Shown piece by piece: positions 1-51,201 of a stretch of 64,000 bases of DNA. The first letter of the stretch is position 1; each line of letters opens with the position of its first letter. The position numbers and the translations under genes are program-made. This stretch comes from Deltaproteobacteria bacterium. GTDB lineage: Bacteria; Myxococcota_A; UBA9160; UBA6930. The stretch covers positions 1 through 64,000 of the forward strand of contig JAJDAP010000022.1 in the NCBI GenBank assembly GCA_029261795.1, given 5' to 3'. The notes under the pieces were generated by a model, which was not told where the DNA came from, searched no databases, and saw only the letters and a list, made by a program, of their open reading frames with translations.

Positions 1-446
1 CGCACCTGGGTCGGTGTCTTCAACACCACATGGTGATACCGGTCCTTCAGGACCGGTCCAGAGCGCGCGAACACGCGATTTACCGCCCGCGCGAGGCGCG
101 CGCCCAGTGACTTCATCCCACGCCCCAGCGCGTCCGCATCCTTCGTCTCCACCAGCAGATGGACGTGATTCGCCTGGATCGAGCAGTGCGCGAGCCGGAA
201 GTCCCCGCGATCACAGGCCCTCGCCCAGGAGCGTTCGAGCTCTCGTACGAGCTTGACGGTTCGAAGGGAAGGCACGCCATCGCGCACCTTCAGGGTGACG
301 TGGCAGGGATACCGGGAAGCCAGCCCGGTTCGGCGGAGATGCGGGATGCCGGACCCCGCTTGCGGCCTTCGGCCGGCGCCAGCCCGCTTCCCGCCCCACC
401 CGGAGTGCCGCAGTTCGAGCTGTGTTCCGGATACCTTACGCCGCAT
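1..446 (-). CDS. REP-associated (Y1/IS200-like) tyrosine transposase, C-terminus cut by window edge
   Basis: The frame opens at an ATG whose complement lies at 444-446 and stays open to base 1. About 148 codons are visible and the C-terminus is outside the window. The N-terminus reads WGGKRAGAGRRPQ, a basic lead-in often seen in this family. It is followed by YPCHVTLKVRDG and then by QANHVHLLVE, which carries the HUH-type His-x-His metal motif of Y1 transposases. The segment LKDRYHHVVLKTP is also typical. The catalytic Tyr is expected in the missing part or near its edge. Enzymes of this type nick and join single-stranded DNA at palindromic REP-like repeats. A long perfect hairpin at 7992-8070 is a possible substrate, but that link is inference. 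Confidence 0.85.
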   Translation of the reverse strand, partial: MRRKVSGTQLELRHSGWGGKRAGAGRRPQAGSGIPHLRRTGLASRYPCHVTLKVRDGVPSLRTVKLVRELERSWARACDRGDFRLAHCSIQANHVHLLVETKDADALGRGMKSLGARLARAVNRVFARSGPVLKDRYHHVVLKTPTQV

Positions 447-628: not shown

Positions 629-1541
629 GTGGCCGGGGCGCTCGGCGTGGTGGGCCGTGCGGTCGTGGAGCGGATCGACTCGCTTGGCGGCGATGACGCG
701 GTGGTCGCGCTCTCGCGCCGGGCGCCGGACTTCGAGAGCCGCGCTCGCTCTCTGTCGGTTGACCTGCGGGACGCGGGGCGGACGCGTGCCGAACTCGAAG
801 ATCATCGCGACGCGACGCACCTCGTCTATGCGGCGCTCCACGAGAAGCCACAGCTGATCCGGGGCTGGTTCGATCCGGACCAGATCGAGAGCAACCGGCG
901 CATGCTCGAAAGCACGCTCGACGCCTTGCCTGGCCTCGAGCACGTGACACTGCTCCAGGGCACCAAGGCCTACGGCGCCCACCTCGGCGTGCCGATTCGT
1001 GTTCCCGCGCGAGAGGTCGCGCCGCATCGGGACCACGCGAATTTCTACTGGGAGCAGGAGGATCTGCTTCGCACCCGGGCCGCTCGCGACGGCTTCCGCT
1101 TCACGATCTTCCGCCCCCAGATCGTCCTGGGCCTCGCTTCCGGGAGCGCCATGAACCCGATCGCGACGTTGGGGGCGTTCGCCGTGCTTCGGCGCGAGCT
1201 CGGCCTGCCCCTGGTACATCCCGGGCACCCCCATGCGCTCACCGAGTGCACGGACGCCCGTCTGCAAGCGCGCGCCATCGAGTGGGCGTGGCCACAGCGC
1301 GCTGTGGCGACGAATGGCCGAGCGCGAGGGACTCACGGAACCGGACCTGGAGGCCTGGATCGGACTCTCCTGGCAGTACGCCGACGTGCTGTGGGCGAAC
1401 CCCGTTCTCCCCGAGAGACCTGCGCTGGTCTCCACGATCAAGCTCCGTCAAGCCGGCTTCGGCGATTGCATCGATACCGAACGCTCGATCCTGGATGGGA
1501 TCGATGCCTGCCGCCGCGCGGGCTATCTCCCGCCTCGTTAG
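629..1541 (+). pseudogene. Decayed NAD(P)-binding SDR-family reductase (PRISE/epimerase-like): frameshift and internal loss
   Basis: The first part, from GTG 629, reads AGALGVVGRAVVE (Rossmann glycine motif), then LQGTKAYGAHLG and NFYWEQEDLL. These are typical of extended SDR reductases related to progesterone 5-beta-reductase. Near 1285-1310 this frame loses family resemblance. The expected C-terminus (MAEREGLTEPDLEAW, LSWQYADVLW, VSTIKLRQAGF) continues in another frame to a TAG at 1541. The stretch that normally joins the two parts is short or missing. No ATG precedes the first beta strand: GIVV lies just upstream of the GTG, so the N-terminus may be clipped too. The 3' end overlaps the convergent DUF899 gene by 4 bases. 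Most likely a pseudogene; a sequencing error would explain the frameshift but not the missing block. Confidence 0.75.
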
Positions 1542-2194
1542 GCGCCGTAGTCCTTGCTGGGGAAGAACTCGCCGCGGCCTTCGGGCGTCAGGTCGAAGTA
1601 GTTCCACACCGGGCTCAGCAGATCCATCATCCGCCCGCCCTCCGGACCGAAGGCGCGCGACGAATAGAAGTGCCGCAGGGTTCCGTCCTCGGCGCGTTCG
1701 TAGACCGAGACGCCCGGGAACTGCTCACCAGCTTCGTTCTCGAACGCCAGCTCGAGCTTCAGTGACGAGGAAGCCGCCGAAACCACCCGCAGGTTCCGCC
1801 AGCCCCGCTCCCTTGCATACGCTTCGAACGCGCCGACGTCACCGGCGACGAGGACGGCGAAGTTCACGCGCTGGCGCAGGTGAGGGATTGCACCGTCATA
1901 GCCATCAGCCCAGAGTGTGCACATCGGGCACGGCGAGCTCTGGGCCTTGCCGAACATGAAGTGCATCAACACCAGCGGCTTGTGCGGATCTTCGAACAGC
2001 TCCGAGAGCCGCAGCTCGCCGGGTTGGCCGTCGACGAACTGTTCGAAGATGCAATCTTCGGCCGGGGTGTCCCTCGGCAGGGAGCGACGGAGTGCGGCCA
2101 CCCGCTCGCGTTGATCGCGAAGCGCGACCTCGGCCTCGTAGAGTTCGCCGCGAACCTTCTGGTACTCGGGCGATGCGTTCGGATGCTGCGTCAT
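1538..2194 (-). CDS. DUF899 family thioredoxin-like protein
   Basis: A 218-residue protein from an ATG. The N-terminal third is charged and helical. The core reads LVLMHFMFG, then CPMCTLWADGYDG, a thioredoxin-fold signature with a CxxC pair at about residues 95-98. The C-terminus reads WNYFDLTPEGR, which is characteristic of DUF899. Members are small cytosolic thioredoxin-like proteins, presumed to be redox enzymes, with no settled substrate. Its stop overlaps the end of the convergent decayed reductase by 4 bases. It lies downstream of the SDR gene on the same strand with a 73-base gap, so co-transcription is possible. Confidence 0.85.
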   Translation of the reverse strand: MTQHPNASPEYQKVRGELYEAEVALRDQRERVAALRRSLPRDTPAEDCIFEQFVDGQPGELRLSELFEDPHKPLVLMHFMFGKAQSSPCPMCTLWADGYDGAIPHLRQRVNFAVLVAGDVGAFEAYARERGWRNLRVVSAASSSLKLELAFENEAGEQFPGVSVYERAEDGTLRHFYSSRAFGPEGGRMMDLLSPVWNYFDLTPEGRGEFFPSKDYGA

Positions 2195-2267
2195 TCGAAT
2201 CTCCTCAGTCGATGTTCAACCATTCGATTCAATCCACCACGATCGGGGGAGCAGCGACGGCCCTCGC

Positions 2268-3032
2268 CTAGCCATGCATCGAGAGCCCACCCGAGACGCT
2301 CAGTACCTGTCCGGTGATGTAGCCCGCATCGTCCGAGAGCAGGAAGGCGACGATGCCTGGATAGTCCGCAGGTTGGCCCAGCCGACGCATCGGAATGGCG
2401 CGTTCGAGCGCCTTCGCGAGCCCTCCCCCAGGATCGAAGTTCCGGAAGAGCGGCGTGTCCGTGGGCCCCGGCGACACCACGTTGAGGGTGATGCCCTGGC
2501 GCGCGAGTTCGCGGGCGACCGATTTCGAGAAGGCCACGATCCCGCCCTTGCAGGCGGCGTAGACGGACTCGCCGGAAGACCCGACCCGGCCGGCGTCGGA
2601 AGCGATGCTCACCACTCGACCACGCCCCGCGGCGGCCATCCGGCCGAGTACCGCGTGGCTCACGTTCAAGGGCCCCATCAGGTTGATCTCGACGACCTTC
2701 CGCCAGAGTTCTGCATCGGTCTCGAGGAACGGTTTGGCGACGTCCCAGCCAGCGTTGTTCACCAGCCCCTGGATTCCGCCGGCACGCTCGGCGAACGCGG
2801 CGACTGCGGACTCCACCGCCGCCGCGTCGCTGATGTCGACCTCGAAGCTGAGCGCCACGGCGCCCACACCACGAATCTGCTCCGCCGTCGCTTCGGCACC
2901 GGCCAGATCGAGGTCCAGGATGCCGACGACCGCGCCCTCTTCCCCGAGGCGAACGGCGATCGCGCGGCCGATCCCGCTGGCCGCCCCGGTGACCAGGATC
3001 GAACTTCCGTCTAGTCCACGAAATCCCGGCAA
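2268..3032 (-). CDS. SDR family NAD(P)-dependent oxidoreductase
   Basis: A 254-residue classical short-chain dehydrogenase. Visible motifs are TGAASGIG for cofactor binding, NNAG, a Ser in DAGRVGSSGES, and the YAACK catalytic Tyr/Lys pair. The PGPTDTP and GQVLSVSGG segments complete the fold. The ORF is open upstream, but TTG at 3030-3032 is chosen as start because AGGAGG lies 5-6 bases before it and the next residues lead straight into the first strand. An Asp-rich strand end (DLDLAG) suggests preference for NAD(H). The substrate cannot be read from sequence; 3-oxoacyl reductases and 2,3-diol dehydrogenases look similar. Confidence 0.88.
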   Translation of the reverse strand: MPGFRGLDGSSILVTGAASGIGRAIAVRLGEEGAVVGILDLDLAGAEATAEQIRGVGAVALSFEVDISDAAAVESAVAAFAERAGGIQGLVNNAGWDVAKPFLETDAELWRKVVEINLMGPLNVSHAVLGRMAAAGRGRVVSIASDAGRVGSSGESVYAACKGGIVAFSKSVARELARQGITLNVVSPGPTDTPLFRNFDPGGGLAKALERAIPMRRLGQPADYPGIVAFLLSDDAGYITGQVLSVSGGLSMHG

Positions 3033-3256
3033 CGGTTCCTCCTGGCGAATCCAGGCGACACGGTACCTTAGGCGACCTCCACGGCGACGGTGGGGACCCC
3101 AGGCAGCGAGGCCGTCTGAGCCTTCTGGCGGGAGCCTTCGAGCGCCGCCGCCTCGTGCAGGGCAATTCCGCAAACACCTGCCACGGTTGGTGAATTCCAC
3201 TCTCCCCCGGTGGGGCCGCTGCGCGCTTGGCGCTTCGGCGGCTATGCTTGGTGGCC

Positions 3257-5236
3257 ATGTTGCGTCGTACCTCTCACGCCTCTGGCGCCCTCCTCGCCCT
3301 CGTCTTCGCAGCTCTGTTGTTCGCGGGCGAAGCCCAGGCCGCGCTCAGCTGTGCCGACCTCCCGGACATGACCACGCTCTTCTTCCAGAAGCACGTGCAG
3401 CACCGGAAGCTCACACCGGAAATTCGCGACCGCACGGTCGAGAACTACTTGCGCGCCCTCGATCCACAGCGCGTGCTGTTCCTCGAGGCAGAGGCCGAGA
3501 AACATCAGCGCGAGTTGCGGAACGTGTTTCATGAGACCCGCGCCGGGGACTGTCGCCGCTTGCGCAAGGCCCACGAAGCCGCCGTCGCCCGTAGCCGCGA
3601 AATCGAGGGCTTCGTCCGGGGCTTCGTCGGAGACGTTGGTTATGCGCTCGACGAGAGCGCAACGCTGGTGGTCGACCCCGAGGACCGCGGACACCCGGCC
3701 ACCGCGGAGAAGCGCGACGCGCTGCTTCGTGCGCTCGTCCACTTCCAGATCTCGAACTACACGTCGGGGGATCTCGATCTCGAGGAAGCCCGCCGCAAGC
3801 TGATCCACCGCTACGAACTGCGAACCAAGCGCGCCGAGGAACTGGAGGCTGAGGATCTATACGCCCTCTACCTCGACAGCTTCGCGCGAGCGTTGGATCC
3901 CCACTCGAATTTCCTGTCCGCCGACTTCTTCGAGGATTTCAGGATCCAGATGCAGCTCTCGCTCGAGGGGATCGGTGTCGCCCTGAGCGAAGAGGACGGC
4001 TATTCGATCGTTCGGGAGATCATTCCCGGCGGCGCCACCGATCGAGCCAAGGCGCTGGTGCCGGCCGATCGCCTCATCGCGGTCGCAGAGGATGGTGCCG
4101 AGGCCGTCGACATCATCGACATGGCGCTTAGCGACGTGGTGCGGTTGGTGCGCGGCAAGAAGGGCACGAAAGTCCATCTGACGGTCTTGCGGGAGAACGA
4201 GCGGCTGCACGTCACGATCGTACGCGACCGGATCGACCTCGAGCAACAGGCCGCGAAGCTCGAGATCCGCGAAGTCGAAACCGCCGGAGGCAGCCTCAAG
4301 CTGGCTGTACTCGACCTTCCCTCCTTCTACGGTGACGGCGACCCGCGCCAACGCCAGGGTTCGCGGGATGTGCGAAAGCTGTTGTTCGAAGCCCGCAAGT
4401 CCGAGATCGATGGCCTGGTCCTCGACCTCTCTCGCAACGGCGGTGGACTGCTCGAGGATGCCGTGAAGATCACGGGATTCTTCCTGCGCGATGGCGGCAT
4501 CGTCTCCGTGCGCGACACTGCGGCGGCCAGCCGCGTCCACAAGGACCCGGATCGGGGCATTCTCTACTCGGGGCCCATGGTCGTGCTGACCTCGCGGGTC
4601 AGCGCTTCGGCATCCGAGATCCTGGCGGGCGCCATGAAGGACTACGGTCGCGCCGTGATCGTCGGCGACGACCACACCTTCGGGAAGGGCACGGTCCAGA
4701 GCATGCTGCCGCTGGGCCGCCAGGACGTGGGCGCGCTCAAGGTCACGACCGGGCTCTTCTTCCGCCCCGGCGGCACCTCGACCCAGCTGGCCGGCGTGAA
4801 AGCGGACGTAGTGCTTCCCTCATTGCTTGCCAATGAGCGCATTGGGGAAGCCGTCCACGAGAACGCGCTGTCTCCGGAATCGATCGCACAATTCCGCACC
4901 CCGCAGGATCCCGGGCGACCGGGCTCCTGGAAGCCCGTCGCCCCGGCCGTGCTCGACGAACTCTCGAAGCGCTCGGCACTCCGGGTCGCCGAGGATGAGG
5001 CGTTCCAGGAGATCCTCACGGAGATCGCCACGCGGGAGGAGGACGACGGCGTGTTGCGCCTGGCCGAGATCATGGAAAAGGACGAGGCCGACACCGCATT
5101 GATCAGCGGCTCCCTCGGAGGCGATACGGCCAGCGCAGGTTCCGAGACGGCCGACGCAGAAGACGAAGAGCCGCCGTCACCGCACCTCGAAGAAGCGATT
5201 CGCGTGCTGACCGACCTGATCCAGATCACTTCGTGA
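3257..5236 (+). CDS. prc: Carboxy-terminal (tail-specific) S41 protease, Prc-like
   Basis: A 659-residue periplasmic protease. Residues 1-28 form a signal peptide ending in EAQA. A Tsp-type N-terminal domain follows (about 30-220). A PDZ domain (about 230-320) binds C-termini of substrates. The S41 core carries the catalytic dyad: Ser451 in VSASASEI and Lys477 in FGKGTVQ. The length matches the E. coli Prc class rather than short CtpA types. ATG 3257 is preferred over the upstream ATG 3227 because it places the signal peptide at the N-terminus. Expected roles are trimming of periplasmic and outer-membrane proteins and of cell-wall enzymes. It overlaps the next small gene (GTGA), so the two are translationally coupled. 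Confidence 0.93.
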   Translation: MLRRTSHASGALLALVFAALLFAGEAQAALSCADLPDMTTLFFQKHVQHRKLTPEIRDRTVENYLRALDPQRVLFLEAEAEKHQRELRNVFHETRAGDCRRLRKAHEAAVARSREIEGFVRGFVGDVGYALDESATLVVDPEDRGHPATAEKRDALLRALVHFQISNYTSGDLDLEEARRKLIHRYELRTKRAEELEAEDLYALYLDSFARALDPHSNFLSADFFEDFRIQMQLSLEGIGVALSEEDGYSIVREIIPGGATDRAKALVPADRLIAVAEDGAEAVDIIDMALSDVVRLVRGKKGTKVHLTVLRENERLHVTIVRDRIDLEQQAAKLEIREVETAGGSLKLAVLDLPSFYGDGDPRQRQGSRDVRKLLFEARKSEIDGLVLDLSRNGGGLLEDAVKITGFFLRDGGIVSVRDTAAASRVHKDPDRGILYSGPMVVLTSRVSASASEILAGAMKDYGRAVIVGDDHTFGKGTVQSMLPLGRQDVGALKVTTGLFFRPGGTSTQLAGVKADVVLPSLLANERIGEAVHENALSPESIAQFRTPQDPGRPGSWKPVAPAVLDELSKRSALRVAEDEAFQEILTEIATREEDDGVLRLAEIMEKDEADTALISGSLGGDTASAGSETADAEDEEPPSPHLEEAIRVLTDLIQITS

Positions 5237-5493
5237 AAACGCTGGGGACGCTGCTGGCGATCGCGGCCTTCGCCGCTGTCGTGGCCTACGCCATGGCCCA
5301 GCAGGGCCAGGTCCGCTGTGAGGTCTGCGTCAACTACAAGGGCCAGACCCGCTGCAAGACCGTGGCGGCGCTGACCGCCGAAGACGCGCTGGCCTCGGCC
5401 CGCAGTGGCGTCTGCGGCGAGATCTCGGGCTCGATGACCCGCGACCTCGAATGCATGAGAGTCGAGCCCATTTCCTCTTCCTGCGAGGAATAG
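5233..5493 (+). CDS. Small exported or membrane-anchored cysteine-rich protein, unknown function
   Basis: An 86-residue protein starting at GTG 5233 inside the stop of the protease gene. Residues 4-22 are hydrophobic (LLAIAAFAAVVAYAMA) and act as a signal peptide or single anchor. The rest is hydrophilic and holds seven Cys, starting with CEVC and ending SSSCEE. Such spacing fits disulfides or metal binding in the periplasm. I do not recognise the family. Coupling to the Prc-like gene suggests a partner, adaptor or substrate, which is inference only. Confidence 0.75.
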   Translation: MKTLGTLLAIAAFAAVVAYAMAQQGQVRCEVCVNYKGQTRCKTVAALTAEDALASARSGVCGEISGSMTRDLECMRVEPISSSCEE

Positions 5494-5577
5494 CCGCAGC
5501 AGCCGCTGCGCGTGCCCGAGCGGCCTCGTTCGTTACCTTCGCGCGCTCGCTACCCCGCATTCCATCGGGAGACCCCC

Positions 5578-6513
5578 ATGTCCCTGGACCCCACCGTCCG
5601 CGAACGCCTCGATCAACTGGTCGGCTCCGATGCCGTCGTGCTCTTCATGAAGGGCCAGCGCGGCGCACCCCAATGCGGTTTTTCGGCGACCGTGTGCCAG
5701 ATCCTCGATGGCTTCGTCCCCGAGTACACCACCGTGGATGTGCTCGCAGACCCGTCCATTCGCGACGGCATCAAGCAATACTCGGAGTGGCCGACGATTC
5801 CGCAGCTCTATGTGGACGGCGAGTTCATCGGCGGTTGCGACATCATCCAGGAGATGGCCGGCGATGGATCGCTCGCGCCCGCGCTCGGGATCGACGTCGT
5901 GGCCGGCGACGCTCCCGCAATCACCATCACCGCGGCCGCTGCCGAGGCGCTCACGCAGATCGCGGCCCAGCAGCCGGCCGCTCGGGCACTGCACCTGCGC
6001 ATCGACGCGCGCTTCCAGGCCGGGCTCTACTTCGGGCCGGAGGAAGAAACCAGCCACCTGGTCGAATCTGGCGGCATCAAGCTCTTCGTGGACCCGCTCT
6101 CGGCCACCCGCGCCGACGGCATGACCATCGACGCCGTGGATACCGGCGATGGCCCGGGCTTCCAGATCGACAACCCGAACGCACCGGCGCTGGCAGAAGT
6201 CGGCGAAATGACCGTGAGCGAACTTCAGCAGTTGATCGCCTCGGACACGCCCTACCAGCTCTTCGACGTACGAACCCCGGACGAACGCGCGATCGCCCAT
6301 ATCGACGGCGCGCGGCTCCTCGATGAGGAGGGAACCGCGCTACTCGAAGGGCTCGATCGCGGCACGATGCTCGTCTTCCATTGCCATCACGGGGGCCGCA
6401 GCGCATCGGCAGCCAAGCACTTCGCCGACCAGGGCTTCACGAACGTCTGGAATGTGACGGGCGGGATCGACGCCTGGGCTCGCGAAGTCGATTCCTCGGT
6501 TCCCCGCTACTAG
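5578..6513 (+). CDS. Three-domain fusion: CGFS monothiol glutaredoxin, Cys-less A-type carrier domain, rhodanese
   Basis: A 311-residue protein from ATG 5578. Residues 1-105 are a Grx4-type glutaredoxin with FMKG, QCGFS and the WPTIPQLY/GGCDI glutathione site; CGFS proteins carry [2Fe-2S] clusters. Residues about 115-205 look like the HesB/IscA fold (ITITAAAAEAL, GFQIDNPNAP) but have none of the three cluster-ligand Cys. Residues about 210-311 are a rhodanese with the active loop HCHHGGRS. The fusion could link cluster handling with sulfane sulfur. BolA follows 16 bases later and DusB after that, so an operon is likely. A separate stand-alone Grx4 lies at 54487. Confidence 0.88.
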   Translation: MSLDPTVRERLDQLVGSDAVVLFMKGQRGAPQCGFSATVCQILDGFVPEYTTVDVLADPSIRDGIKQYSEWPTIPQLYVDGEFIGGCDIIQEMAGDGSLAPALGIDVVAGDAPAITITAAAAEALTQIAAQQPAARALHLRIDARFQAGLYFGPEEETSHLVESGGIKLFVDPLSATRADGMTIDAVDTGDGPGFQIDNPNAPALAEVGEMTVSELQQLIASDTPYQLFDVRTPDERAIAHIDGARLLDEEGTALLEGLDRGTMLVFHCHHGGRSASAAKHFADQGFTNVWNVTGGIDAWAREVDSSVPRY

Positions 6514-6529
6514 CATCAAGGAGAGCGCC

Positions 6530-6802
6530 ATGACCCTGCAGATCATGAGCGAGCCGCCGCCGGAGCCGGCCGAGATCGCCGACAAGATGCGCACGGCGAT
6601 CGAACAAGAGATGCCCGGCGCCAGCGTCACGGTCACGGCGGTGAGTGCCGGACACTTCGAGGTCGATGTTCTCGCAGCGGAATTCGAGGGCCTCACGCGG
6701 GTGAAGCAGCAGCAGCGGGTCTATGCCGCCATCCAGGAACTGATGGCCGGCGACAACGCCCCGGTCCACGCCATCGACCGGATGGTCACGCGGACGGCAT
6801 AG
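6530..6802 (+). CDS. BolA family protein
   Basis: A 90-residue BolA-like protein. The fold is visible as a helix (EIADKMRTAIEQ), a strand segment GHFEVDV, the KQQQRVYAAI helix and the C-terminal His in APVHAID. That His can serve as cluster ligand in Grx-BolA complexes. CGFS glutaredoxins and BolA proteins form [2Fe-2S]-bridged heterodimers used in iron sensing and cluster delivery. Here the gene directly follows a CGFS fusion gene (16-base gap), which supports a physical partnership. The specific subfamily (BolA versus IbaG) was not resolved. Confidence 0.88.
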   Translation: MTLQIMSEPPPEPAEIADKMRTAIEQEMPGASVTVTAVSAGHFEVDVLAAEFEGLTRVKQQQRVYAAIQELMAGDNAPVHAIDRMVTRTA

Positions 6803-6809
6803 GCCCGGC

Positions 6810-7991
6810 GTGCAGGCCGAATACCGCAGCGAGCTGAATCGCGAGACCCCGCTCGCGCGGTCGGGCGAGTTCGCGCCGCTCGAACTGGGGCCGCTGCGGG
6901 TCGACCCTCCGCTGGTGCTCGCACCGATGGCGGGCGTGACGAACGCGCCCTTCCGTTCGCTATGCCGTGGCTACGGCGCCGGGCTCTACGTCAGTGAGAT
7001 GATCACCGCACGGGCCCTGGTCGAGGGCAATCCGAAGACGCTGAAGCTCGCCGCCTTCGCCCCGGACGAAACACCGCGCAGCCTCCAGCTCTACGGCACC
7101 GATCCGAAGTACACCGGCGAAGCGGTGGCTCGCCTGGTGGGCGAGGACCGCGTCGACCACATCGACCTCAACTTTGGCTGCCCGGTACGGAAGGTGACGC
7201 GCAAGGGCGGCGGCGCCGCGATCCCGTTGAAGCGTGGGTTGTTGCGGAACATCGTGCGCGCCTCGGTCGCCAACGCCGGCGCCGTACCGATCACGATCAA
7301 ATTCAGGATCGGGATCGACGACGAGCACACGACCTACCTCGATGCCGGGCGCATCGCTGAGGAGGAGGGTTGTGCGGCGGTCGCGCTGCACGCCCGCACC
7401 GCCGCCCAGCTCTACGACGGGGAAGCGGATTGGAGCACCATCGCGCGGCTCAAGGATGCCGTGCAGAGCATTCCGGTCCTTGGCAACGGAGACATCTGGG
7501 AAGCCCACGACGCGCTGCGCATGATGCGCAGCACCGGCTGCGACGGTGTCGTTGTCGGGCGCGGCTGCCTGGGCAGGCCTTGGTTGTTCGGCGACCTCGC
7601 CAGGGTCTTCAGCGGCCGCGAACCGGAAGAGCCTCCGACACTGGGTGGTGTCGCCTCCGTCATGCAGGACCACGCTGCGCGACTGTGCGCGCACTTCGGA
7701 GAGAGGTCCGCGATTCGCGCGTTCCGAAAACACGCGACCTGGTACACCAAGGGATTCCCCGGCAGTGCCGCGATGCGTTCGAAGTTGATCCAGGTCTCGA
7801 CACTCGCCGAACTCGAAGAGGTGCTCGCTAGCCTCGATCCCGATCTTCCCTTCCCGCAGAGCGCGATGCGCGTTCCCCGCGGCAAGAAGAGCGGCCGCCA
7901 ACGCGTAGCCCTCCCCGACGGCTACCTCGACGCCCTCGACGACGACACCCCCCCGGACCCAAGCGCCGAAGACCCAAGCTCAGGAGGTTAG
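6810..7991 (+). CDS. dusB: tRNA-dihydrouridine synthase, DusB-like
   Basis: A 393-residue FMN enzyme that reduces uridine to dihydrouridine in tRNA, from GTG 6810 eight bases after bolA. The TIM-barrel start is LAPMAGVTNAPFR. The catalytic Cys is in LNFGCPVRKVTRKGGGAA, the dihydrouridine synthase signature. FMN-phosphate binding is seen in GNGDI and VVGRGCLGRPW. The C-terminus FRKHATWYTKGFPG matches the helical tRNA-binding domain of the DusB group. The last 40 residues are low-complexity and acidic. The stop codon is followed at once by the large hairpin at 7992. Confidence 0.9.
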   Translation: MQAEYRSELNRETPLARSGEFAPLELGPLRVDPPLVLAPMAGVTNAPFRSLCRGYGAGLYVSEMITARALVEGNPKTLKLAAFAPDETPRSLQLYGTDPKYTGEAVARLVGEDRVDHIDLNFGCPVRKVTRKGGGAAIPLKRGLLRNIVRASVANAGAVPITIKFRIGIDDEHTTYLDAGRIAEEEGCAAVALHARTAAQLYDGEADWSTIARLKDAVQSIPVLGNGDIWEAHDALRMMRSTGCDGVVVGRGCLGRPWLFGDLARVFSGREPEEPPTLGGVASVMQDHAARLCAHFGERSAIRAFRKHATWYTKGFPGSAAMRSKLIQVSTLAELEEVLASLDPDLPFPQSAMRVPRGKKSGRQRVALPDGYLDALDDDTPPDPSAEDPSSGG

Positions 7992-8070
7992 GCGGGGACG
8001 GACTCCTCAAGTTTCAAGATAGCAAGTTTGAAAAACTTGCAATCTTGAAACTTGAGGAGTCCGTCCCCGC
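7992..8070. repeat. 79-bp near-perfect hairpin, REP-like element or bidirectional terminator
   Basis: Arms 7992-8020 and 8042-8070 are 29 bases each and perfectly complementary. Inside, 8022-8029 and 8033-8040 pair as an 8-bp stem around a 3-base loop, with a single A/A mismatch between the two stems. The element occupies almost the whole gap between convergent stop codons (7991 and 8073). The GC-rich base (GGGGACGGACTCC) and AT-rich upper stem are unlike the neighbouring coding DNA. It could end transcription from both sides. Its length and symmetry also fit a REP-type repeat mobilised by a transposase like the one at 1-446. Confidence 0.85.
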
Positions 8071-8072
8071 TC

Positions 8073-9611
8073 CTATTCCAGGTTCGTCAGGAAGTTTCGG
8101 GCGACTTCGGCCGGGGTCTTGCCGGCGTCATCGACTTCGAAGTTCATTTGCTGCATGCGCGCTTCGTCGATGGTATTGGCCAGGGACCCGAGCGCGGTCA
8201 GCACGTCGGGGGCCTCTCGTGCCAGCCGTGCACTCGTGAGGACGATCGCGTCATAGGGTGGGATGACCGCGCGGTCGTCCTCCAACAGCACCAGGTCCAT
8301 CGAGGCGATGCGGCCGTCCGTCGAGTAGGCGCTGATCACGTCGACCTGGCCTGCCCCGACCGCCTCGTACATCAAGGCCGGGTCCATGGTCCGCTCGGCG
8401 CGGAAGTGGAGACCATACTCGGATTCGATCGCGTCCCATTCGGCGCGGTCGAAGAAGACGTAGTCGCCGCCGATCTCGAGGCGCGGCGCGACGCGAGCCA
8501 GGTCCGAGATCGTACGAACCCCGAGTTCCTCGGCCCGGGCCCTGCGCATGCCGAGGGCGTAGGTGTTCTGGAAGCCGAGATTGCCGACCACGTGCAGACC
8601 CTGTTCGCCCTCGAGCCATTCCGTGACGCCGGCGAGCACCGCCGCGCGACCGGGAAGATCCTCTCTTCCCATGAACTCGGCCCACACGGTGCCGGAGTAG
8701 TCGACGTAGATGTCGACGTCCCCGGTGACCAGGGCATCGAACAAGACGGTCGTCCCGAGCGATTGCAGGCCCTCGGCGCGCTGATCCGTCCGCGCCTCGA
8801 CCCACTGGCCCAACACTTCTGCCAGGATGTATTGCTCCGTGAAGGATTTCGACCCGATCACGACGGAACGCGTGTCGTCCGACCGATCCTGCCACCAGGC
8901 TCCTGCCGCGACAGCCACCAGCCCGCCGAGGACGATGGTCGAGACGGCCACCAACGCCCGGCGACGATCGCGAAGGCCGACCTCGAGGCCGCGGATCACC
9001 TGATCCAGCACGATCGCGAGCCCGGCCGCCGCGAGGCAACCGACCAGGATCGCGGCGTTGTTCCGGGTCTGGAGCCCGGTAAAGATGAAGTTCCCGAGGC
9101 TCGTCGCCCCGACGGGGGTCGACAGCGTGGCGGTGCCCACCACCCAGACCGTGGCGGTTCGCAGCCCGGCGACGATGACCGGCATCGCTAGCGGCAGTTC
9201 GACCCGGCGCAGGCGCTGGCCGGGCGTCATGCCCACACCACGCGCGGCCTCATGCAGCGCCGGATCGACGCCGAGAATCCCGGCCACGGTGTTTCGCAGG
9301 ATCGGGAGCATGCTGTAGAGCGAGAGGGCGATGATCGCCGGCAGGTAGCCGATGCTGCGCAGCTCGATCCCGAACTCCTCCGCGGTCCCAGCCAACGCCG
9401 CGAGCGTTGGCACCATGATCGCGAGCAGAGCCAGGCTCGGGATCGTCTGGATCACCGCCGCCACGCCTAACACCGGCCCTTCGAGGGCCCGCCGGCGGGT
9501 CACGAACACACCGAGCGGAACCGACAGGCCCGCACCGAGAAGCAGCGCCACCAGCGTGAGCTGGAGGTGCGCCGTCAGGTAGCCCGGCAACAGCGCGAGT
9601 TGCTCACTCAC
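8073..9611 (-). CDS. Glycine betaine/choline-type ABC transporter, permease fused to substrate-binding domain
   Basis: A 512-residue fusion of an OpuCB/ProW-type permease and an OpuCC/ProX-type binding protein. Residues 1-215 hold about six membrane helices and the inner-membrane EAA-like loop (EAARGVGMTPGQ). After a linker helix at about 225-245, residues 250-512 form the binding domain, starting GSKSFTEQYILAE. SSFDP-like motifs such as VDYSGTVW and FDRAEWDA match the OsmF/OpuC group. Compatible-solute uptake (betaine, choline or similar) is the usual role. The GTG start overlaps the stop of the ATPase gene upstream, so the two form one transcript. Confidence 0.9.
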   Translation of the reverse strand: MSEQLALLPGYLTAHLQLTLVALLLGAGLSVPLGVFVTRRRALEGPVLGVAAVIQTIPSLALLAIMVPTLAALAGTAEEFGIELRSIGYLPAIIALSLYSMLPILRNTVAGILGVDPALHEAARGVGMTPGQRLRRVELPLAMPVIVAGLRTATVWVVGTATLSTPVGATSLGNFIFTGLQTRNNAAILVGCLAAAGLAIVLDQVIRGLEVGLRDRRRALVAVSTIVLGGLVAVAAGAWWQDRSDDTRSVVIGSKSFTEQYILAEVLGQWVEARTDQRAEGLQSLGTTVLFDALVTGDVDIYVDYSGTVWAEFMGREDLPGRAAVLAGVTEWLEGEQGLHVVGNLGFQNTYALGMRRARAEELGVRTISDLARVAPRLEIGGDYVFFDRAEWDAIESEYGLHFRAERTMDPALMYEAVGAGQVDVISAYSTDGRIASMDLVLLEDDRAVIPPYDAIVLTSARLAREAPDVLTALGSLANTIDEARMQQMNFEVDDAGKTPAEVARNFLTNLE

Positions 9612-50852: not shown

Positions 50853-50884
50853 TTGACATATTCTATATTTCCAATATATTGGAA
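50853..50884 (+). promoter_or_regulatory. arsR promoter with 16-bp palindromic operator
   Basis: TTGACA at 50853-50858 and TATATT at 50875-50880 form a -35/-10 pair with a 16-base spacer. A perfect palindrome, TTCCAATATATTGGAA, spans 50869-50884 and covers the -10 box. The expected transcript start falls at the arsR ATG (50887), so the mRNA may be leaderless; only GGAA at two bases' distance precedes the ATG. Self-repression by ArsR released by As(III) is the natural model. Confidence 0.7.
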
Positions 50885-50886
50885 TT

Positions 50887-51201
50887 ATGGAAAAGCAAGA
50901 GATCCTCGCCAGCCTCGGCGCGCTCGCCCAGGAGACCCGACTCGATGTCTTCCGTCTGCTCGTCGAAACGGGCCCCGCGGGCCTCTCGCCCGGCGCCATC
51001 GGCTCCGCTCTGGAGCTGCCGCCGGCCACCCTTTCCTTCCACCTGAAGGAGCTGAAGAGTGCCCAGATCGTGAGCTGCAAGCGCGAGGGGCGTTCCCTTC
51101 GCTACGCGGCGAATTTTCCACGCATGGAGGCGCTGGTGCGTTTCCTGACCGAAAACTGCTGCCGTGGTTCGAACTGCAACGAACCGCGCCCGAGCGCCTG
51201 A
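50887..51201 (+). CDS. arsR: ArsR-family metalloregulator
   Basis: A 104-residue winged-helix repressor. The recognition helix region is LPPATLSFHLKELKSAQIV, typical of ArsR (SFHLKEL). A C-terminal Cys cluster, ENCCRGSNCN, gives a likely As(III) site of the kind found in ArsR proteins with Cys near the C-terminus rather than in helix alpha-3. It is divergent from selD and 10 bases upstream of arsI. A palindromic operator overlaps its promoter. Confidence 0.9.
   Translation: MEKQEILASLGALAQETRLDVFRLLVETGPAGLSPGAIGSALELPPATLSFHLKELKSAQIVSCKREGRSLRYAANFPRMEALVRFLTENCCRGSNCNEPRPSA

Follow-up and report, generated by a model that had tools for sequence, protein, structure and literature searches.

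What kind of element is the long, nearly perfect hairpin that lies at positions 7992-8070 between two convergent genes, and how do its two arms stay alike? The window, by which we mean the whole stretch of 64,000 nucleotides that was analysed, comes from contig C22 of a 5.74-Mb MAG of 139 contigs. A listing of inverted repeats in this window has 17 entries, and the hairpin exceeds all others in length. Its left arm (7992-8029) and right arm (8033-8070), both given on the plus strand, are 38 nt long and 97% complementary, with one mismatch (8021 versus 8041), and they are separated by a 3-nt gap, the loop GAA at 8030-8032, which appears both in the fold and in the inverted-repeat listing. The fold consists of 29 bp, one A.A mismatch and a further 8 bp beneath the loop, in agreement with the 29-base perfect arms and 8-bp upper stem described in the initial annotation. 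Its predicted energy is -75.6 kcal/mol, compared with a mean of -27.4 for shuffled sequences (z -14.1; 0 of 200 shuffles as stable). The core GGGGAC...GTCCCC occupies 7994-8068 and, as argued below, the whole would be a solo palindrome, a miniature element of two terminal inverted repeats (TIR-TIR) that has no strand of its own.

The hairpin is, as had been claimed, sealed between two stop codons. On the plus strand, dusB (tRNA dihydrouridine synthase, 6810-7991) ends with a TAG at 7989-7991, immediately 5' of the hairpin start at 7992, and on the minus strand a gene for a single protein with an ABC permease and a glycine-betaine-type binding domain (8073-9611) ends with a TAG at 8073-8075, two bases past 8070. 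The right outermost tetranucleotide, GCTC at 8069-8072 (GAGC on the minus strand), matches the consensus of the family described below, and the left one, AGGC at 7990-7993, is a variant of the terminal GAGC and overlaps the dusB stop. The GC content is 66% for the window and falls to 29% over the hairpin's inner 45 nt. Between 7700 and 8400, we found neither a terminator-like site (a stem with a T-run), in line with the earlier remark that a U-run is missing, nor a promoter-like site, and an intrinsic terminator with a GC-rich stem and a T-run was thus rejected. A search of Rfam with the hairpin gave nine matches, all under the gathering scores. Elsewhere in the window, an AT-rich palindrome at 50861-50892 lies just upstream of an ORF that by eye resembles a regulator of the ArsR type, and it is possibly the operator of that gene.

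The genome was searched with the 15-nt hairpin end GGGGACGGACTCCTC. Exact copies numbered 66 on the forward and 64 on the reverse strand of the whole genome, compared with 0 and 0 for the reversed control, and at up to two mismatches there were 95 and 89, compared with 8 and 10. Forty-five complete hairpins fitted the fixed-end pattern GCGGGGACG-N40-70-CGTCCCCGC (control 0), and 23 hairpins with the fixed ends had an interior of 20-50 nt. The hairpin is therefore multi-copy, and the single-copy outcome that, according to the initial annotation, would have favoured a terminator was not what the search returned. The solo copies that we inspected were 72-92 nt long, except for L065, a place at a contig end with a doubled end and 101 nt. 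Places at up to two mismatches that were counted but unlisted were left unfetched, save four found through the pattern with the 20-50 nt interior. Flank, gene and repeat statistics were based on 42 internal copies in which both ends are present, of which 41 are solo and one is autonomous; one-ended or contig-end places were excluded (L001, L006, L008, L016, L019, L053, L055, L063, L065, L069, L072, L074, L076, L079, L080, L084, L085, L092, L096 and one right-end-only place in L077). Contigs of this genome (G000) that end near a hairpin, at L019, L053, L065 and L080, carry the other flank in mirror image, apparently an artefact of fold-back during assembly.

A likely autonomous partner of these hairpins lies on contig C79, where 1,053 nt (C79:21073-22125) read as the hairpin split by a gene: left half, minus-strand ORF, right half. 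The initial annotation had pointed to a hairpin flanking a transposase gene as something to look for, and this is the arrangement found here, with the two halves around a Y1 ORF. The ORF, at C79:21096-22019 on the minus strand between ends at C79:21073 and 22125, is the candidate cognate Y1 transposase gene. Its 308-aa product (P0001) carries a Y1_Tnp domain (PF01797, 31.2 bits, cut-off 23); it scored 63.4 bits against the NCBI model REP_Tyr_transpos, under the cut-off of 80, and a profile built from 16 of its relatives matched TnpA-REP (PDB 4er8) with an E value of 0.0017. The motifs N61 H62 x H64 (NHxH) and Y121 xxx N125 (YxxxN) are invariant in 16 aligned sequences of this transposase type, the TIR-associated TIRYT; we take the N61/H62/H64 HUH motif and Y121 to be the catalytic residues of the C79 protein. 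TIRYTs of subclass 2.1 (RAYT group 1) are marked by a helix-turn-helix extension at the C terminus; here, a C-terminal extension aligns in 14 of the 16 sequences, the other two being short matches, and P0001 had no Pfam match to an HTH domain. This TIRYT is the sole one found in its own genome, and its TIRs are imperfect, with two inner halves that differ. The TIR, GGGGACGG, departs from the motif GGGGWSAS by one base, at position 7, and many relatives begin with (G)GGGACG. Locus L077 of C79 (positions 1001-8042) brings together a solo hairpin, a right half-hairpin and the autonomous element in about 7 kb.

The initial annotation had assigned the hairpin to a Y1 transposase at 1-446 of the window, and only part of this explanation stands: the kind of explanation was right, namely, a multi-copy palindrome tied to a REP-type tyrosine transposase and not a plain terminator, and the transposase named was not. 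The gene at 1-446 (minus strand) is a fragment cut by the contig start, with its first ATG at 446 and PF01797 at 66-251 (24.5 bits), and it belongs to a different high-copy kind that is not part of the hairpin element. PF01797 matches the genome at 30 places, and 28 of these have scores of 22.9-28.4 bits, similar to that of the window fragment; seven of these weak-scoring copies that we compared are about 84-90% identical in DNA over about 1 kb. A complete copy of the window kind (L044, 230 aa) shares 24% identity with P0001 over 71 aa, and exact GGGGACGGACTCC or its complement occurred in none of the 18 fetched loci of that kind (L033-L050). The window gene was rejected as the cognate of the hairpins on these two grounds; it appears to represent a sister Y1 family, and the idea that it drives the hairpins is not supported. 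Many of the 28 weak-scoring places, which include the window fragment and L033-L050, lie near contig ends. A third, single Y1 kind at L031 (G000:C39:760-1113, minus strand) scores 138.7 bits with PF01797 and is unlike the other two.

Related transposases with flanking inverted repeats were also found outside this genome. Among 79 genomes of the order, a TIRYT homologue at E<=1e-20 was present in 19, the own genome included, and 60 had none at that threshold. An exact inverted repeat surrounds the gene in 22 of 25 homologous loci (the own locus left out; the exceptions are L111, L114 and L127), and 16 of these 22 start with (G)GGGAC, both counts being read by eye from a list, without a control. 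In named species genomes, for which the best 80 of 548 loci were kept and 64 had enough flank for the test, an exact flanking TIR of at least 12 nt was found at 46 of the 64 loci, compared with 3 of 64 when the right flank was swapped from another locus. The fixed-end hairpin pattern was absent in 65 of the 79 genomes of the order; among the 14 positive genomes, some had single non-hairpin matches (for example, G030, G077 and G078). In G013, one match to the hairpin end was found, with no second arm nearby. One solo-hairpin pattern sought in six named genomes was found in none of them, and only four of the six have the TIR in question.

Di Nocera et al. (2013, PMC3733652) introduced the name TIRYT for TIR-flanked RAYTs and TIRtron for the elements to which these belong. 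They describe moderately abundant TIR families, with a self-complementary one in S. maltophilia at ORF 1152, and state that the GGGGWSAS motif is common to some TIRs only and not strictly defining (PMC3733652). The hairpin family has the features of a TIRtron with its TIRYT, namely, a Y1 gene between long TIRs and a TIR dispersed in the genome, and self-complementary TIRs also occur in some TIRtrons. It differs in the TIR, here one base off GGGGWSAS, and in its solo copies, palindromes of 72-92 nt in which both TIRs are joined and which often abut stops; the MAGs that carry it are probably of Myxococcota. In an HUH survey, 20 of 26 TIRYTs and 291 of 292 RAYT group 1 sequences fall in subclass 2.1 (PMC6006769). 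REPINs, as outlined by Bertels and Rainey (2011, PMC3116915), have paired inverted ends and a variable self-complementary spacer with common compensatory changes. The present family resembles REPINs and RAYTs in its inverted ends, covarying spacer and link to a REP-type tyrosine transposase, but its ends are not GTAG-footed REPs and its transposase appears to resemble the TIRYT kind, so that we regard it as working like a REPIN without filing it as one. A GTAG REP was rejected as well, as a short hairpin with an unpaired GTAG foot does not fit ends that carry GAGC in 67 of 84 cases. GTAG REPs are described as often supplying TAG stops to flanking genes (PMC3733652); here, too, ends abut genes and supply a stop, with the difference that there TAG comes from GTAG and here TGA comes from T plus GAGC. 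In the literature searched (titles and abstracts, with most subscription journals outside), we found no description of this hairpin family and no comparison of TIR palindromes between orthologous positions. Families of this sort are on record; what is added here is the clear joint change of the arms over time, which recommends the hairpins for work on palindrome copying.

The congener G001 provides a view of the sites before insertion. It had no exact hairpin ends, no TIRYT at E<=1e-20 and, in the loci fetched from it, no 13-nt end even at up to two mismatches. At the dusB junction, both genes are adjacent and 73-76% identical, the hairpin is absent, the dusB stop falls at the aligned position and the two stops overlap in one CTAG. 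At the sites of L086, L073 and L089, both flanks are likewise in order and the hairpin is absent. All four sites with both flanks found in G001 (4/4) thus lack the hairpin and retain the genes, which we take as recent insertion; for L058, just one flank was found and the site stands outside this count. At the Dus sites of G002, G005 and G013, no precise empty site was obtained. The hairpin family is apparently recent, and it is absent from the one congener examined. A direct repeat of at least 3 nt at the ends was found in 0 of the 42 internal copies, as is expected of HUH single-strand transposition, and a MITE with target duplication was rejected on this count. Complementary flanks at L057, L064, L082 and L083 had raised the idea of insertion into pre-existing stems. 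Over the 42 copies, a weak effect appeared from the fifth to the ninth base of the flanks (positions 5-9; 86 of 210 complementary versus 70.0 in right-flank shuffles, with 34 of 2000 reaching the observed value), and positions 10-25 showed no excess. The match at positions 5-9 could equally reflect mirroring that spills into the flanks.

Going outward from GGGGAC, the ends of the 42 copies have C at 84 of 84, G at 77, A at 78 and G at 68, and the complete tetranucleotide GAGC, inverted at both sides, is present at 67; on this sequence pattern, GAGC is likely the true end of the element. CTGAGC at 35 of 84 ends, together with the CTAG of the empty site, suggested one insertion motif such as CT^AG, a candidate weakened by the finding that CTGAGC is on both sides in only 9 of 42 copies. 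Genes were called with a home-made caller that uses codon log-odds trained on the window and a score threshold. A confident gene was found at 73 of the 84 ends and pointed toward the element at 51, and a stop lies within 15 nt of the element at 40 of these 51. Among the 22 stops with a two-base offset, 20 are TGA, composed of T and the GA of the element, and at other offsets within 15 nt, TGA accounts for 4 of 18; eight stops are TAG or TAA, placed four bases before GGGGAC. TGA makes up 24 of the 40 near stops versus 22 of 42 for the genes that the caller placed in the window (TAG 16, TAA 4), and the excess of TGA is positional and not clearly overall. At L086 and L073, inspection by eye shows the right-hand gene stopping with TAA in G001 and with TGA in G000, two cases that fit an element supplying GA.

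Two genomes of the same taxonomic family, G005 and G009, contain sister hairpins, with 37 and 19 fixed-end pattern matches, respectively (control 0). In the two families that they form (A and B, L164-L202; the sequences are GCGGGGACGGGGTTTACAATTGACTTG... and GCGGGGACGTTCTTTCCG...), the outer arms are conserved and the centres vary yet stay symmetric. The TIR of the TIRYTs in G009 and G005 (L116 and L117) is CGGGGACGTTCTTTCCGCTGTTTCCGTT, which recurs as the arm of solo hairpins there, so that the arms match the TIR of the own TIRYT in one of the two families; an in-frame stop interrupts the G005 copy, L117. A stop occurs within 15 nt outside GCGGGGAC at 29 of 46 gene-facing ends in family A and 11 of 15 in family B, and 12 gene-facing ends in family A read through to a TGA inside the arm. 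Palindromes of family A also run on into their flanks (GTCAAC..GTTGAC), where variable bases are often mirrored within a copy.

In all of these families, the two arms of a copy resemble each other far more closely than they resemble the arms of other copies. For 40 solo copies of the own genome, the mean arm difference was 0.6 within a copy versus 5.2 between copies; the most degenerate solo copy, L090, was left out of this figure and of the 41-row alignment, and its inclusion (41 copies) gives 0.85 versus 5.42. The corresponding values were 0.48 versus 7.95 in family A (27 copies, L192 being dropped because its right flank is cut) and 0.36 versus 6.24 in family B (11 copies). L063 was kept in the 41-row alignment, and L008 and L053 were kept in the 14-row alignment. 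Changes on both sides were found in 10 of 36 pairs of the 75-nt class (2.3 in shuffles, 1 per slid control) and in 5 of 39 pairs of the 82-nt class (2.1 in shuffles, 0-2 in slid controls). Counted by cells (468 in each class), 16 changed on both sides and 13 on one in the 75-nt class (11 unpaired, 2 G-U), and 14 on both sides and 6 on one, all unpaired, in the 82-nt class; G-U pairs, 2 of the 19 single-arm changes, are thus not favoured. The outer 13-15 nt of the arms scarcely vary, and mirrored insertions AAAG/CTTT occur in 5 rows of the 41-row alignment, perhaps from one event.

The most direct evidence comes from sites shared between species. Among 19 of 19 G009 hairpins and 20 of 37 G005 hairpins, six sites were orthologous, with flanks 84-92% identical. 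Over these six sites, the within-copy arm distances total 8, and the distances between the same arms of the two species total 50. Arms that had been independent since the split would show a within-copy distance at least as large, and we therefore read the sums as a sign that one arm has been rewritten from its partner at the site itself. Where the hairpins of both species have equal length (four pairs), 13 changes on the left and 12 on the right include 10 exact mirror images (chance of such overlap per pair, 0.0001 to 0.02); in L165/L197, the centre was replaced yet is symmetric. Between species, the arms changed by about 10%, according to our arithmetic, compared with 8-16% in the flanks. 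This re-copying of the arms seems to take place at the DNA level, with template switching as the probable mechanism; some of the likeness could also stem from conversion by another copy or from copying in the course of transposition. Template switching at quasi-palindromes is reported, for RNA genes, to produce compensatory changes of several bases at once, by which perfect stems are restored or created (PMC8794818); the difference is that those cases are RNA genes, and the present ones are mobile DNA palindromes at orthologous sites.

The covariation has another possible explanation, namely, selection on the hairpin, exerted by the transposase or on an RNA, and this we hold to be a serious alternative with somewhat less than an even chance. 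The near-constant outer 13-15 nt look like a transposase site, single-arm changes do occur beside two-sided ones (13 versus 16 in the 75-nt class, 6 versus 14 in the 82-nt class), and REPIN spacers are reported to show common compensatory changes (PMC3116915). On the other hand, exact mirror images make up 10 of the 13 left and 12 right changes, the AAAG/CTTT insertions and the new symmetric centre of L165/L197 are hard to reach by single compensations, and G-U pairs are not favoured in single-arm changes. The symmetry might also be produced by short-read assembly, from collapsed or chimeric inverted reads, a suspicion fed by the contigs that end in a hairpin and a mirrored flank at L019, L053, L065 and L080. 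It is very unlikely to be the cause, because the 42 copies analysed are some 1 kb or farther from any contig end, each with two unlike flanks, copies of 72-92 nt fit inside one ordinary read, mismatches persist in several copies, and the separate assemblies G005 and G009 have near-perfect palindromes at six shared sites.

As regards the junction itself, the hairpin might be a bidirectional terminator or a stabiliser of mRNA 3' ends between convergent genes, selected for its RNA fold. Such a role would suit the great stability of the fold and the gene settings of the 42 copies, 17 of which are confidently convergent (18 without the score threshold) versus 10 of 41 neighbouring pairs in the window. 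The remaining copies are tandem (13), divergent (2) or unclear (10), and this, together with the lack of a T-run site in 7700-8400, the retention of the genes at the four informative congener sites where the hairpin is missing, the transposase gene held by one copy and the low share of G-U pairs (2 of 19), makes the role improbable as the reason for the family; once inserted, a hairpin may nevertheless influence transcripts. That the hairpin is a structured small RNA gene is scarcely credible: the Rfam matches that suggest one are mostly to long-hairpin microRNA models, nine of nine fall below the gathering score, the best appear on both strands, as a long hairpin would, and no promoter-like site was found in the same interval.

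Taken as a whole, these data suggest that the hairpins are very probably non-autonomous miniature elements, each made of two TIRtron TIRs joined by a short loop; we infer their activity and the action in trans. The autonomous copy on C79 carries the same ends around a Y1/HUH transposase of the TIRYT type, and this TIRYT would act in trans on the GAGC-GGGGACGG ends. IS200/IS605 and TnpA-REP are regarded as moving single-stranded DNA, and the present element presumably moves in this form as well. Elements would be found beside stop codons because insertion there spares the upstream gene: the terminal GA may complete a TGA after T, or the native TAG or TAA may stay just outside the element. After insertion, intrastrand template switching in replication would copy arm onto arm and so keep the palindrome near perfect while the inner sequence drifts. 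A bolder version, which we put forward tentatively as rather unlikely, is that the TIRYT aims insertion at stop codons, with the GA of the element restoring the stop, and that the arms are rewritten by DNA-level copying, possibly within the transposition cycle through single-strand fold-back and not by chance replication error; private symmetric centres would follow, and mirroring may spill a few bases into the flanks. The family could also be a relic or be driven from elsewhere. Between convergent genes, the hairpin may also affect the 3' ends of mRNAs.

The analysis adds an abundant, apparently recent family of TIRtron-derived palindromes, with its partner transposase identified and with two genomes of its taxonomic family carrying sister families. 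It also shows how a hairpin fits into a tight convergent junction with both neighbours keeping their stop codons. Orthologous copies in two species serve as a natural experiment for the question of how the arms of a long palindrome remain so similar, and such hairpins make the choice between templated copying and selection directly testable.
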